Positions 23,797 through 45,970 of a stretch of 64,000 nucleotides of DNA are shown one piece after another. How positions within the stretch are numbered: position 1 is the first letter of the stretch; each line of letters starts with the position of its first letter. This stretch comes from an uncultured Aliivibrio sp. (lineage in GTDB: Bacteria; Pseudomonadota; Gammaproteobacteria; Enterobacterales; Vibrionaceae), in contig NZ_CAMLHO010000001.1 of NCBI RefSeq assembly GCF_946479765.1, forward strand, positions 124,001 through 188,000, in the 5' to 3' direction. Position numbers and translations under genes: made by a program. The notes beneath the pieces were generated by a model, which worked only from the letters and a program-made list of their open reading frames with translations, was not told where the DNA came from and did not search any database.

Positions 23797-24558
23797 ATGA
23801 TTGATACCCACGCTCACATATACGCGAAAGAATTTGATGAAGACCGAGATTTGGTGGTTCAACGCGCCTTAGCACAAGGTATTGATCAAATTTTATTGCC
23901 GAATATCGATTTAGACTCTATCGAACCAATGTTAAAAACCGAAGCGGCTTATCCTGATGTTTGTCGCTCAATGATGGGCTTACACCCTTGCTATGTGAAC
24001 GCCGATGTTAAGCAAACCCTAGCAACTATCCACTCTTGGTTTGAGAAGCATAACTTCATTGCGGTAGGTGAAATAGGTATTGACCTATACTGGGATAAAA
24101 CCTTTAAAGCTGAACAAGAGATGGCTTTTATCACCCAATTAAACTGGGCAAAAGAGATGAAGTTGCCTGTTGTTATCCATACTCGTGATTCTATTGAAGA
24201 AACATTAAGCCTTCTAAAACAAGAACAAGATGGCTCGTTATCAGGCACATTCCACTGTTTTGGTGGCTCGGTTGACGAAGCTAAAGCAATCAATGATCTA
24301 GGCTTTCATTTAGGATTAGGCGGTGTTTCTACTTTTAAAAATGGTGGAATGGATAAAATTATTCCTCATCTGAATATGGATTATTTAATTCTAGAGACCG
24401 ATTGCCCATATTTAGCACCTGTACCTCATCGTGGTAAACGTAATGAACCAGCGTATACGCAATTAATCGCGCAACGTGTGGCTGATTTACGTGAAATGAG
24501 TTTGGCGGATGTGGATGCAATTACGACGGCGAATGCGAAAAGACTTTTTGGGATTTAA
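23797..24558 (+). CDS. tatD: TatD family metal-dependent deoxyribonuclease
   Basis: A 253-residue TIM-barrel hydrolase. Metal ligands are seen as HAH near the N-terminus (DTHAHIYAKEFDEDR), Glu in GEIGIDLYWD, His in VIHTRDS and FHCFGGS, and the C-terminal ETDCPYLAPVPHRGKRNEP motif. TatD nucleases act in DNA repair and degradation; the name comes from genetic linkage to tatABC and not from a role in export. It diverges from hemB. The tat operon is on the opposite strand beyond the two csrB RNAs. Confidence 0.95.
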   Translation: MIDTHAHIYAKEFDEDRDLVVQRALAQGIDQILLPNIDLDSIEPMLKTEAAYPDVCRSMMGLHPCYVNADVKQTLATIHSWFEKHNFIAVGEIGIDLYWDKTFKAEQEMAFITQLNWAKEMKLPVVIHTRDSIEETLSLLKQEQDGSLSGTFHCFGGSVDEAKAINDLGFHLGLGGVSTFKNGGMDKIIPHLNMDYLILETDCPYLAPVPHRGKRNEPAYTQLIAQRVADLREMSLADVDAITTANAKRLFGI

Positions 24559-24570
24559 GAGAAAACAATA

Positions 24571-24680
24571 GAGTTCAGATCGCTTCTATAAGAGAAAAAG
24601 CTGATTCTTTAACGCTGTTATTCCAACGTCACAATACTCGCTCTTATAGTATCTAGTTAGCGCAGCGTATAGGCTTTTAC
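24571..24680. repeat. Dispersed repeat, copy 2, with inverted half
   Basis: The right part (about 24634-24680) repeats CTCGCTCTTATAGTATCTAG and the following GTTAGCGCAGCGTATAG. The left part (24572-24595, GTTCAGATCGCTTCTATAAGAG) is an inverted version of the same element. Together they form a loose palindrome between tatD and the first csrB terminator. Confidence 0.65.
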
Positions 24681-24695
24681 TTTGTCCCAAACAAG

Positions 24696-25116
24696 AAAAA
24701 CCCCGCTAGACTCTCGTCCAACGGGGTTATAACTTTACTCGCAGCAATCCGGCTACTAATGGTGCTCCATGCATCAAATCCTTGATAGTATGCTGATTCC
24801 TTCAGCTTATTCCTTTCTCGCCATCCTAGCGGTGTCCTTGATCTTATCCTGATCCGTTAACAGTCCGTAGTTAACTCTCTTCACTTGTTCCTTGAGCGGT
24901 GTCCGTTACATCATCCTGATGTGCAATCCATTTTCCTCTATCCTAGAGGTGTCCATCATCTTTCCTTAGTAGCAACCATCTTAGTTACTATTGCGTCCAT
25001 TCAATGTCCATTTCGCTATCCATGCCGATTACTAATCCTAAGTAACCGAGTGCTTCATCCTGAAGCTTACCAAATCCTTGGTTAGTTCCTGTTCCGTGTC
25101 AGTATCCTTCCGACAC
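24696..25116 (-). ncRNA. csrB1: CsrB-type small RNA, copy 1 (sequesters CsrA)
   Basis: An untranslated RNA of about 421 nt. On the minus strand it contains about 29 GGA triplets, many as AGGA or GGACA in loops of short hairpins (for example ATCAGGATGAT, CTCTAGGATAGAG, GCTAGGATGGC). This is the hallmark of CsrB/CsrC RNAs, which bind many CsrA dimers and relieve CsrA control of mRNAs. It ends in a strong terminator. The promoter and GacA/UvrY-type box described below support transcription. A second copy differing at few positions lies 786 bases away, in tandem. Ends are inferred from promoter and terminator. Confidence 0.92.
24697..24730 (-). terminator. Terminator of csrB copy 1
   Basis: On the minus strand CCCCGTTGGAC pairs with GTCTAGCGGGG around a GAGA loop, followed by TTTTTCTTG. 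Differences in copy 2 keep the stem paired. Confidence 0.93.
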
Positions 25117-25121
25117 CAATA

Positions 25122-25149
25122 AGATTACGCTTTTCATTATTTTCAGCAA
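25122..25149 (-). promoter_or_regulatory. Promoter of csrB copy 1
   Basis: A -35 like TTGCTG (25149-25144) and a -10 like TAATCT (25127-25122) are separated by 16 bases. Both elements and the spacing are identical in copy 2, although most of the surrounding sequence has diverged. The start is predicted near 25116. Confidence 0.65.
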
Positions 25150-25281
25150 TAGACTAAATTCAAACTTTTGCAAAAATAATTATCGTCATTTTTTAAAAAC
25201 AGTGAATACCGATAAGTATCAACAAGTTAATTAAGTAATGGCTATATTTATCCATAAATAAAGCGAAAAATCGCACTTGTT

Positions 25282-25299
25282 TGTGAGAGATCTCGCACA
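25282..25299. promoter_or_regulatory. GacA/UvrY (VarA) box upstream of csrB copy 1
   Basis: TGTGAGAGATCTCGCACA is an imperfect 18-base palindrome closely matching the GacA/UvrY upstream activating sequence (consensus TGTAAGAGATCTCTTACA). It is centred about 174 bases upstream of the predicted RNA start, a typical distance for csrB genes. Confidence 0.85.
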
Positions 25300-25321
25300 C
25301 GGGTAATGGATTTTTAGTAAT

Positions 25322-25460
25322 AGGTTTCAGGAAAATACTCAACACTCGCTCTTATAGTATCTAGTTAGCGCAGCGTATAGTTTCTAGCTAGTATAGATAA
25401 ACTCATTACGCATACCCCTGAAACCTTTAAGGGAGCTTGCGACCGATCTGAACCCTGCTC
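25322..25460. repeat. Dispersed repeat, copy 3, within a 10-bp inverted repeat
   Basis: The core ACTCGCTCTTATAGTATCTA and following GTTAGCGCAGCGTATAG (about 25335-25380) is framed by AGGTTTCAGG (25322-25331) and its exact reverse complement CCTGAAACCT (25417-25426). After the right arm comes CGATCTGAACCCTGCT, also found in copy 1. The layout suggests a small mobile or palindromic element between the csrB genes. Confidence 0.65.
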
Positions 25461-25481
25461 TTTCACTTTGCCCCAAACAAG

Positions 25482-25516
25482 AAAAACCCCGCCAGACTCT
25501 CGTCTAACGGGGTTAT
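25482..25516 (-). terminator. Terminator of csrB copy 2
   Basis: On the minus strand CCCCGTTAGAC pairs with GTCTGGCGGGG around GAGA, followed by TTTTTC. Compared with copy 1, two changes swap a U-A and a G-U pair for a U-G and an A-U pair, so the stem is preserved. Confidence 0.93.
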
Positions 25517-25903
25517 AACTTTACTCGCAGCAATCCGGCTACTAATGGGGCTCCATGCATCAAATCCTTGATAGTATGCTGATTCCTTCAGCTTATTCCT
25601 TTCTCGCCATCCTAGCGGTGTCCTTGATCTTATCCTGATCCGTTAACAGTCCGTAGTTAACTCTCTTCACTTGTTCCTTGAGCGGTGTCCGTTACATCAT
25701 CCTGATGTGCAATCCATTTTCCTCTATCCTAGAGGTGTCCATCATCTTTCCTTAGTAGCAACCATCTTAGTTACTATTGCGTCCATTCAATGTCCATTTC
25801 GCTATCCATGCCGATTACTAATCCTAAGTAATCGAGTGCCTCATCCTGAAGCTTACCAAATCCTTGGCTAGTTCCTGTTCCGTGTCAGCATCCTTCCGAC
25901 ACC
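25482..25903 (-). ncRNA. csrB2: CsrB-type small RNA, copy 2 (sequesters CsrA)
   Basis: A second RNA of about 422 nt, a near-identical tandem paralogue of the copy ending at 24696. It keeps the array of GGA-bearing hairpins. Only a handful of single-base differences are visible, several of which are neutral to pairing. It has its own promoter, GacA-type box and terminator, so it should be made independently. A consensus-like CRP site lies further upstream. Aliivibrio fischeri is known to carry two CsrB RNAs. Confidence 0.92.
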
Positions 25904-25907
25904 AATA

Positions 25908-25935
25908 AGATTACGCTTTTGCCTTTTTTCAGCAA
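25908..25935 (-). promoter_or_regulatory. Promoter of csrB copy 2
   Basis: TTGCTG (25935-25930), a 16-base spacer and TAATCT (25913-25908) repeat the promoter elements of copy 1 exactly. The start is predicted near 25903. Confidence 0.65.
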
Positions 25936-26067
25936 TAGACTATTTTGCTATTTTTGCCAAAAATTATATTCAAATTTCACAATAAAATATCAAGTAGTTT
26001 AAATTCAACAACTTAGAATAAAACCACCGAGATTTAGCTATAAATAAAGCGTAAATTCTCACTCTCG

Positions 26068-26085
26068 TGTGAGAGATCTCGCACA
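26068..26085. promoter_or_regulatory. GacA/UvrY (VarA) box upstream of csrB copy 2
   Basis: TGTGAGAGATCTCGCACA is identical to the box of copy 1 and at the same distance from the predicted start. The nearby ATAAATAAAGCG is also conserved between the two copies, while the remaining upstream DNA is not. Confidence 0.85.
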
Positions 26086-26258: not shown

Positions 26259-27014
26259 TTATGCTTCGTCTTGTTCCATATCATCTTCATTTTTTTCTCT
26301 CACATAAAAACGAGAAAAGAACAGACCGATTTCAAACAGAATACACATTGGTATTGCAAGTAAAGTCTGAGAGATGATATCTGGTGGAGTCAGCATCATA
26401 CCCACAACAAACGCACCCACTACGATATATGGACGCTTTTCTCTGAGTATTTCAGGGGTTGTTGCACCCGTCCAGCACAGCAAAATAATGGCAACAGGTA
26501 CTTCAAAAGCAATACCAAAAGCCATAAATAAGGCTAGGACAAAATCAAGGTAACTGGAAATATCTGTCGCTACTTGTACGCCTTCTGGTGCAATGGTAGT
26601 AAAGAAACTAAACACCAATGGGAAAACGATGAAGTAGGCAAAAGAAACACCCGCATAAAACAGCATTGAACTTGAAAACAATAAAGGCATGACAAGTTTC
26701 TTCTCATGCTTATACAGTCCTGGCGCTACAAATGCCCATACTTGATAAAGTATCACGGGAACAGCAACAAATATCGACGCCACCAAAGTCAGCTTTATGG
26801 GCGTGAAAAAGGGTGACGCGACATCAGTTGCTATCATCGTGGCACCTGCTGGTAATCTTTCTACCAAAGGCGCAGATAAGAACTCATAAATGTCGTTAGC
26901 AAACCAAACCAAACCTAAAAACACCACGATCACGGCAATTAATGCCTTTAAAAGACGGTTTCTTAGTTCTAATAGGTGAGTTAACAACGGCTGAGAGTGT
27001 TCAACTGATGACAT
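26259..27014 (-). CDS. tatC: Sec-independent translocase subunit TatC
   Basis: A 251-residue inner-membrane protein with six transmembrane helices that recognises twin-arginine signal peptides. The conserved N-terminal [13 protein letters not shown], the periplasmic FFTPIKLTL segment and the [13 protein letters not shown] loop are present. The charged C-terminal tail is cytoplasmic. It is the last gene of the tatABC set; 2 bases separate it from tatB. Confidence 0.97.
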
Positions 27015-43832: not shown

Positions 43833-43970
43833 TTAGTTTGAGATACAACAGAGAATAAACCTGCATACCTATATACTATGAATTAGACAAATAAATTAAA
43901 GCTAAAATTCAGCTACGATTTATCATTACATAATTCGAGTAGTACTAACAAACTAAGATAAAAATTATCT

Positions 43971-44065
43971 CTTGTTCCCTTCGCAGGTATTAGCCTGATC
44001 AGGTTCTACGGATCCCGCAATGCGGTCTCAGCTCGTACTATAAAAGTACTAAGCACTCCGACAAG
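43971..44065 (-). promoter_or_regulatory. TPP riboswitch (THI element) of the thi operon
   Basis: On the minus strand the element starts CTTGTCGGAGTGC and contains the core CTGAGACCGC, then GGGATCCG, GAACCTGATCAGG, and TAATACCTGCGAAGGGAACAAG near its end (quoted in part). These are the universally conserved thi-box segments, and CTTGT with ACAAG closes stem P1. Binding of thiamine pyrophosphate should shut down thiCEFSGH. The expression platform lies within the roughly 200 bases before thiC, but I cannot define it. Confidence 0.96.
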
Positions 44066-44341
44066 TTTCTTTCAGATTGTCTTAATAAGAATCTGAACGT
44101 AGTCGGAGTATAAAGAAAGAGCTGAAGAAATGAAATGGAAGAAAAGGAAGTTATGAAGTGGTTGGCTGAGTTTGTGAGTGAACGCATATTAGGTTTATTA
44201 ATATGAACCTAATATGCTTCTCCGTAAAAAAGAACGATGTAATTGACGTTGTAACACATCGATGACAAAGTGTTTTTTTACTGCAAAGCACACTAGGTTC
44301 AACTTAAGTAACACGTTATAAACTACATGTTTCACGTGAAA
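44066..44341. other. Intergenic region between the thi operon leader and the CLC gene
   Basis: It should contain the thi operon promoter next to the riboswitch. Visible structures are a perfect 12-bp inverted repeat (44184-44195 and 44206-44217, GCATATTAGGTT) with a 10-base loop and the fourth parS site at its right end. No coding potential seen. Confidence 0.6.
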
Positions 44342-45721: not shown

Positions 45722-45849
45722 AAGTTCTATCTTTTAATATATGGTTAATCAAAAGGATAGACTATCTTAGGAGAGAAGAGAAATAACAAACGGCTCTACT
45801 ATAGACGGATCTACCCCATAATGATAGAGTCATCCGATCGGGTACGCTA

Positions 45850-45904
45850 CAGTAGGAATCATTATCTCTAAATTAGAGCGGTTAAAGGTGGGAATCCATC
45901 ACCC
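45850..45904 (-). promoter_or_regulatory. Fluoride riboswitch (crcB motif) of the CLC-F gene
   Basis: On the minus strand the element reads GGGTGATGGATTCCCACC, then TTTAACCG, a CTCTAATTTAGAG hairpin, and AATGATTCCTACTG. This follows the crcB/fluoride aptamer layout: GGNGAUGG, first hairpin, CUC..GAG stem, then AUGAnnCCUAC forming the pseudoknot. Flanking CCGATC and GATCGG (45913-45835) can close an outer stem. The downstream gene is a CLC-F exporter, so fluoride should switch on expression. Confidence 0.85.
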
Positions 45905-45970
45905 GTGATCGGTTCTAAAACCAATCAACCTATGAAATGCTACTCCTATCATTTATAAATGGCAAATAAA

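Follow-up and report, generated by a model that had tools for sequence, protein, structure and literature searches.

In E. coli, a UvrY inverted repeat of 18 nt lies far upstream of csrB, with an IHF site placed between this repeat and the promoter, and both binding and IHF dependence were demonstrated there; full csrB expression needs IHF, whereas that of csrC does not (PMC4682653). The CsrB family likewise includes csrB, csrC and csrD of Vibrio and csrB1 and csrB2 of V. fischeri, a species for which a role of IHF was suggested (PMC4573307). PMC6262261 poses as a central question why bacteria keep many CsrB sponges, places the Vibrio and the Aliivibrio copies in separate synteny groups, and describes csrB2 and csrB3 of A. 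salmonicida as neighbouring genes that arose by a recent duplication. Neighbouring csrB genes in Aliivibrio are already in print in that work, and what we add is the history of such a pair.

The pair analysed here belongs to the same genus as that of A. salmonicida and lies between tatC and tatD in a 64,000-nucleotide stretch from an uncultured Aliivibrio sp., which as a whole we call the window. In A. salmonicida LFI1238 the only neighbouring csrB pair is the one at the tatC–tatD locus. Like E. coli csrB, both genes of the window have an 18-base inverted repeat far upstream and an IHF-like site before the promoter, with the difference that binding and IHF dependence, experimentally established in E. 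coli, are predicted for the Aliivibrio pair.

Results

Two CsrB-family RNA genes between tatC and tatD

A previous, sequence-only reading of the window had proposed a tandem pair of CsrB-type RNAs, each with roughly 29 GGA motifs, in a protein-free region, and had suggested running the Rfam CsrB model over it. The covariance model RF00018 matches the minus strand twice, at 24690–25006 (88.7 bits) and 25476–25792 (87.0 bits), both above the gathering score of 71 and offset by 786 bases, in agreement with that proposal. We designate the proximal gene, on the tatC side, P and the distal gene, on the tatD side, D (Table 1; the ends of both transcripts are estimates from promoter and terminator sequence). 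P and D differ at 7 of 430 positions and contain 28 and 29 GGA motifs per 430 nt respectively, no other 430-nt segment of the window (step of 10, both strands) having more than 10. The earlier description of these motifs as lying in small hairpins was right for a part of them and too strong as a whole, because 13 of the 28 and 14 of the 29 are wholly in hairpin loops in the minimum-energy folds; 18 and 19 are fully unpaired in the same folds.

The fold of D beats 100 of 100 shuffles (z −3.5), and RNAalifold on 10 relatives gives 112 pairs, five of them with changes on both sides, of which four are in the terminator stem; differences between terminators were found to preserve pairing in the 10-relative alignment, as had been claimed. 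A protein-coding reading was rejected: Pfam gave no match to any of three ORFs located in or next to the gap, two of which run antisense to the RNAs. The ORF list contains no sense-strand ORF of 60 aa or more for either gene. The covariance score, the many GGA motifs partly in hairpin loops and a terminator without a protein product are features that both genes have in common with the CsrB/RsmB family (RF00018), and from the family we infer that P and D would be functional CsrB-type sponge RNAs titrating CsrA.

The 3.8-Mb source genome (120 contigs) has a single csrA gene, a response regulator of the GacA/UvrY/SirA family (NF007018, 431 bits with a cut-off of 280) and three csrB-like genes: the tandem pair and an unlinked copy (L003), which scores 55.4 bits with RF00018, below the gathering score, and is 87–88% identical to the pair. 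The sequence-only reading had added that A. fischeri has two such RNAs; csrB1 and csrB2 are indeed the names of V. fischeri genes (PMC2330054), but two csrB genes per species need not mean a tandem pair, because four Aliivibrio genomes are single-copy at the tat locus.

Other elements of the window include a TPP riboswitch (43959–44070) and a fluoride riboswitch (45846–45912), both on the minus strand and over their gathering scores. Moreover, a dispersed repeat, CTATACGCTGCGCTAACTAGA, lies downstream of both csrB terminators, at 25360–25380 and 24652–24672; it has 26 genome copies at up to 2 mismatches (including L161; reversed control, 0), some of them inverted pairs 36–216 bases apart that resemble MITE ends.

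Table 1. Positions in the window of the csrB-type genes, their predicted control elements and the flanking tat genes.
Feature	Position	Strand	Basis or remark
tatD	23797–24558	plus	
csrB-type RNA gene D (distal, tatD side)	24694–25117	minus	~424 nt, 29 GGA, RF00018 88.7 bits
Intrinsic terminator of D, with D-type letter	24696–24728	minus	hairpin and T run; pairing kept across 10 relatives
−10 of D, TAATCT	25122–25127	minus	sequence
−35 of D, TTGCTG	25144–25149	minus	sequence
IHF-like site of D, −112, 9/9 consensus letters	25217–25229	minus	upstream alignment and motif scoring
AT element GCTTTATTTAT of D (transcribed strand)	25254–25264	minus	upstream alignment
GacA/VarA/UvrY-type box of D, TGTGCGAGATCTCTCACA	25282–25299	minus	exact 18-mer, same as P
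csrB-type RNA gene P (proximal, tatC side)	25480–25903	minus	~424 nt, 28 GGA, RF00018 87.0 bits
Intrinsic terminator of P	25482–25514	minus	hairpin and T run; pairing kept across 10 relatives
−10 of P, TAATCT	25908–25913	minus	sequence
−35 of P, TTGCTG	25930–25935	minus	sequence
IHF-like site of P, −112, 8/9 consensus letters	26003–26015	minus	upstream alignment and motif scoring
AT element GCTTTATTTAT of P (transcribed strand)	26040–26050	minus	upstream alignment
GacA/VarA/UvrY-type box of P, TGTGCGAGATCTCTCACA	26068–26085	minus	exact 18-mer
tatC	26259–27014	minus	

Both genes have the same predicted control elements, including an IHF-like site

The elements upstream of P and D had been read as identical −35 and −10 hexamers, an identical GacA-type palindrome of 18 bases and a conserved AT element, and all of these were found in both copies, with 16 bases separating the two hexamers; the palindrome, in which 8 of 9 positions pair, lies at −182 to −165. 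The view of the upstream region as a conserved footprint thus stands for promoter, AT element and box, and is incomplete in that it missed an IHF-like site. The box matches TGTG[AC]GAGATCTCT[TC]ACA exactly, at −182 in both copies, and fits the VarA site given in PMC6262261, a site that csrB copies of V. tasmaniensis share with one or two mismatches (PMC6262261). In the whole genome the 18-mer occurs at three places, each upstream of a csrB-like gene, and a search at up to 3 mismatches revealed no further place, the reversed control pattern giving 1 match. The box alone is no proof of VarA/GacA dependence, because the level of V. tasmaniensis csrB1 was unchanged in a varA mutant despite its box (PMC6262261).

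The distance from the core of the box to the start is 175–178 in 22 of 22 tat-locus copies, though much of the spacer has diverged; the start was found by pattern in 16 of these copies and read from promoter strings in the other six (script default 177), a default that misses the start by 1 base in G007P and by 2 in G010P. Within this spacer, candidate sites were scored against the nine letters of the IHF consensus. At least eight of the nine letters were present in 8/9 P, 9/9 D, 4/4 single and 3/4 third copies (ten third-copy loci were looked at and four used), and at −115 to −110 in 21 of the 22 tat-locus copies, with a mean of 0.43 of 26 and a maximum of 4 in the shuffled control. Sites of this quality turn up fairly often somewhere in the spacer after shuffling (9.3 of 26), and the rows share ancestry; what carries weight is therefore the common position of the site. 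All nine D copies, and no P copy, have all nine consensus letters.

D promoters average 98.9% identity among the nine species with a tandem pair and P promoters 85.7%, transcript identity being near-equal (D, 96.5%; P, 96.7%). The D promoter may be under tighter constraint than that of P, or may have been shared between species. The two promoters may be regulated differently, as the earlier reading had inferred.

The upstream regions point to one old duplication

Our Aliivibrio sample comprised 14 genomes, of which 13 contain csrB (G009, in 790 contigs, gave no match); at the tat locus, nine of the 13 have two copies and four have one. In the tree of upstream regions the nine D copies form one clade (100/100), and the duplication is therefore old: the tree places a single tandem duplication ahead of the split of at least nine Aliivibrio species, provided that the D region has not passed from one species to another. 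The tatC and tatD trees conflict among Aliivibrio species (L114–L126), so recombination between species acts around the tat locus. A search of 80 tatC loci in named genomes, using a profile from three Aliivibrio csrB genes, identified csrB beside tatC in three Aliivibrio records and, within the stretches examined, neither in the fourth Aliivibrio-labelled record (a metagenome bin) nor in other genera.

Had tandem duplications instead occurred recently and independently in each species, the RNAs would be alike because they are young, which would account for same-genome transcripts often being nearest each other and for the published csrB tree, where A. salmonicida csrB3 stands beside csrB2 (PMC6262261). 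The upstream regions largely refute this: identity between P and D within a genome is only 58–63%, as against 75–95% among D copies across species, and, with test groups chosen after the trees were seen, sister P and D upstream regions were rejected for A. salmonicida (G005) with p-AU 6.6e-58. Given the single D clade, D upstream sequence would need to have been swapped between species each time, and we regard such repeated recent duplication as highly improbable. The published recent duplication in A. salmonicida thus appears unlikely; in our trees the event would be common to nine genomes, consistent with an old tandem duplication.

The single copy of G013 groups with the P copies in the upstream tree (88/82), which means that one csrB copy has presumably been lost from this genome. 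This single copy (L126) combines P-like upstream sequence with the D-type terminator letter, as in a P–D recombinant, and the loss may therefore be a P–D recombination.

Transcripts of a pair are on average more alike than their age predicts

Unlike the upstream regions, the transcribed parts of paralogues within a genome are on average more alike than their age predicts, though this does not hold for every genome. Over 36 species pairs, quartet sites in the transcript supported within-genome, by-position and cross groupings 199, 39 and 20 times, as compared to 74, 1046 and 120 times upstream. The within-genome count for the transcript was largest in 29 of the 36 genome pairs and the other seven were without a within-genome excess; for G006 with G007 the sites favour position by 7 to 0. 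In a permutation test, where D labels are exchangeable if there is no conversion, all 362,880 permutations were run: the transcript gave 62 as extreme as the real labels, the upstream region 347,085 and the promoter part 120,960, and the terminator yielded the same value for every permutation and hence had no power. With p-AU groups again chosen after the trees were seen, holding all D together was rejected by the transcript data (p-AU 0.001) and placing P and D of the source genome together was rejected by the upstream data (p-AU 0.002). P and D of A. salmonicida LFI1238 (G005) form no supported transcript pair, and their pairing was not rejected (p-AU 0.277).

Only 62 transcript columns vary among the 22 copies, and columns 275–349 alone contain 100 of the 199 within-genome sites. 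Bin 225–249 favours position (6 to 3), bins 350–399 have zero informative sites, and bin 400–424 is positional (15 to 0), with one terminator letter found in six of nine D copies and in none of nine P copies. The putative homogenised tract has a clear upstream end near the promoter, and a tentative 3′ end is set by that one terminator column.

Purifying selection, with no conversion, could hold both RNAs near one optimum, their likeness within a genome then being due to chance or parallel change; that transcripts at the same position across species are also 93–100% identical, and that some genome pairs are without a within-genome excess, would fit. Exchangeability of the D labels is nonetheless rejected in Aliivibrio, as well as in the Photobacterium subset described below, P and D share one 7-site haplotype in nine of nine tandem genomes, and the unlinked third copy of the source genome is only 87–88% identical to the pair. 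An explanation by selection without conversion therefore seems very unlikely to us, and we favour gene conversion between the neighbouring copies.

Internal csrB deletions lie beside repeated GGACAC in the P copy of A. salmonicida (L119), which is without 119 nt between internal GGACACC repeats, and in the D copy of G011 (L124; 51 nt). The third copy of the source genome (L003:1481–1853) has lost internal hairpin units, also beside GGACAC direct repeats. The GGACAC repeats that build the sponge probably also promote its recombination.

Photobacterium arrays at another locus

Among 197 Vibrionaceae genomes surveyed, csrB matches were found in 188, and neighbouring csrB genes occur outside Aliivibrio in at least 41 genomes, counted by eye among the matches listed, most of them Photobacterium. 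A Photobacterium array consists of two or three consecutive csrB genes, and tatC is on another contig or far from the array in 22 of 22 genomes searched, so these arrays sit at another locus. Of 20 arrays, 15 were used in trees and five were left out (box core missing for at least one copy); for G106P and G037P the start motif by itself defined the start, and for G128D and G029P the usual spacing did. In the transcript tree, P and D are supported sisters in seven of the 15 arrays (G033, G114, G128, G069, G122, G102 and G049). The P transcripts of G029, G090 and G053 form a separate clade (100/100), and these three arrays are therefore not homogenised. Grouping by position was seen for G094D with G060D and for G106P with G037P, the other copies having no supported grouping.

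Permutations were run on 11 of the 15 arrays, in which positions could be matched between genomes. G033, G029, G090 and G053 were left out, since their upstream regions fall outside the P and D groups shared by the others; G029, G090 and G053 oppose homogenisation and G033 favours it. Across the 11, permutations reaching the observed value numbered 2 of 5040 and 1 of 24 for the transcript, as compared to 3912 of 5040 and 9 of 24 for the upstream region. Quartet sites (within-genome, by-position, cross) were 336, 33 and 7 in the transcript and 78, 1358 and 102 upstream. Thus, in many Photobacterium arrays transcripts are homogenised as in Aliivibrio, albeit at another locus, and in three of 15 they clearly are not. 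In one genome (G126), the reversed stretch L127 has, from about base 1943 onward, a third box core with GGA-rich sequence behind it, suggesting a diverged third csrB in this array, past its two Photobacterium copies.

Short-read assemblers can blend near-identical repeats, and a likeness of assembly origin has to be weighed here: many of the genomes are drafts, the source genome (120 contigs) included, and those few that have 10 contigs or fewer show a weak effect. Nonetheless, P and D differ at seven positions in the source genome and also differ in every tandem genome compared, and the direction holds, though with little statistical power, when only genomes of up to 10 contigs are used, both in Aliivibrio (2/24 permutations; quartet sites 25 to 14) and in Photobacterium (1/6 permutations; quartet sites 42 to 1). 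We therefore consider an assembly artefact unlikely, and retain gene conversion as the reading of the homogenised transcripts.

Discussion

We conclude, with a probability of roughly 0.8, that P and D are two functional sponge RNAs descended from one old tandem duplication, with gene conversion acting largely within the transcript. By analogy with the family, phosphorylated GacA would bind the box at −182 when a GacS/GacA-type system is active, and an IHF bend near −112 would bring GacA to RNA polymerase at the sigma-70-type promoter; each RNA would then offer up to ~29 GGA sites, drawing CsrA off its mRNA targets. A single tandem duplication would have given rise to the pair before the divergence of at least nine Aliivibrio species, and gene conversion between the neighbours would repeatedly have overwritten the transcribed part, where the informative sites lie at about +1 to +350. 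The two RNAs would in this way be kept interchangeable, with promoter and spacer retaining position-specific sequence. Homogenisation of the RNAs would make the pair look younger by RNA than it is. The words ‘gene conversion’ and ‘concerted’ are absent from the main text of PMC6262261, and among the matches listed in the open-access literature we found no paper on homogenisation of csrB genes.

More tentatively, and at somewhat less than even odds for the reading as a whole, the promoter, and perhaps the terminator as well, may set the limits of conversion, with the sponge dose held while the promoters diverge and specialise, D with its perfect IHF consensus and near-invariant promoter and P with looser ones. 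On the same reading, csrB genes of Vibrionaceae would commonly evolve in this way, and trees built from the RNA only would be misled.

For the family, csrB trees built from transcripts can misdate duplications. Homogenisation offers an explanation of where A. salmonicida csrB3 was placed in print, and the same may apply to V. nigripulchritudo csrB2, which stands beside csrB1 despite csrB2 synteny (PMC6262261). For the bacterium, near-identical RNAs behind long-diverged promoters would separate dose from control, such that deleting either gene would alter the input and not the product.
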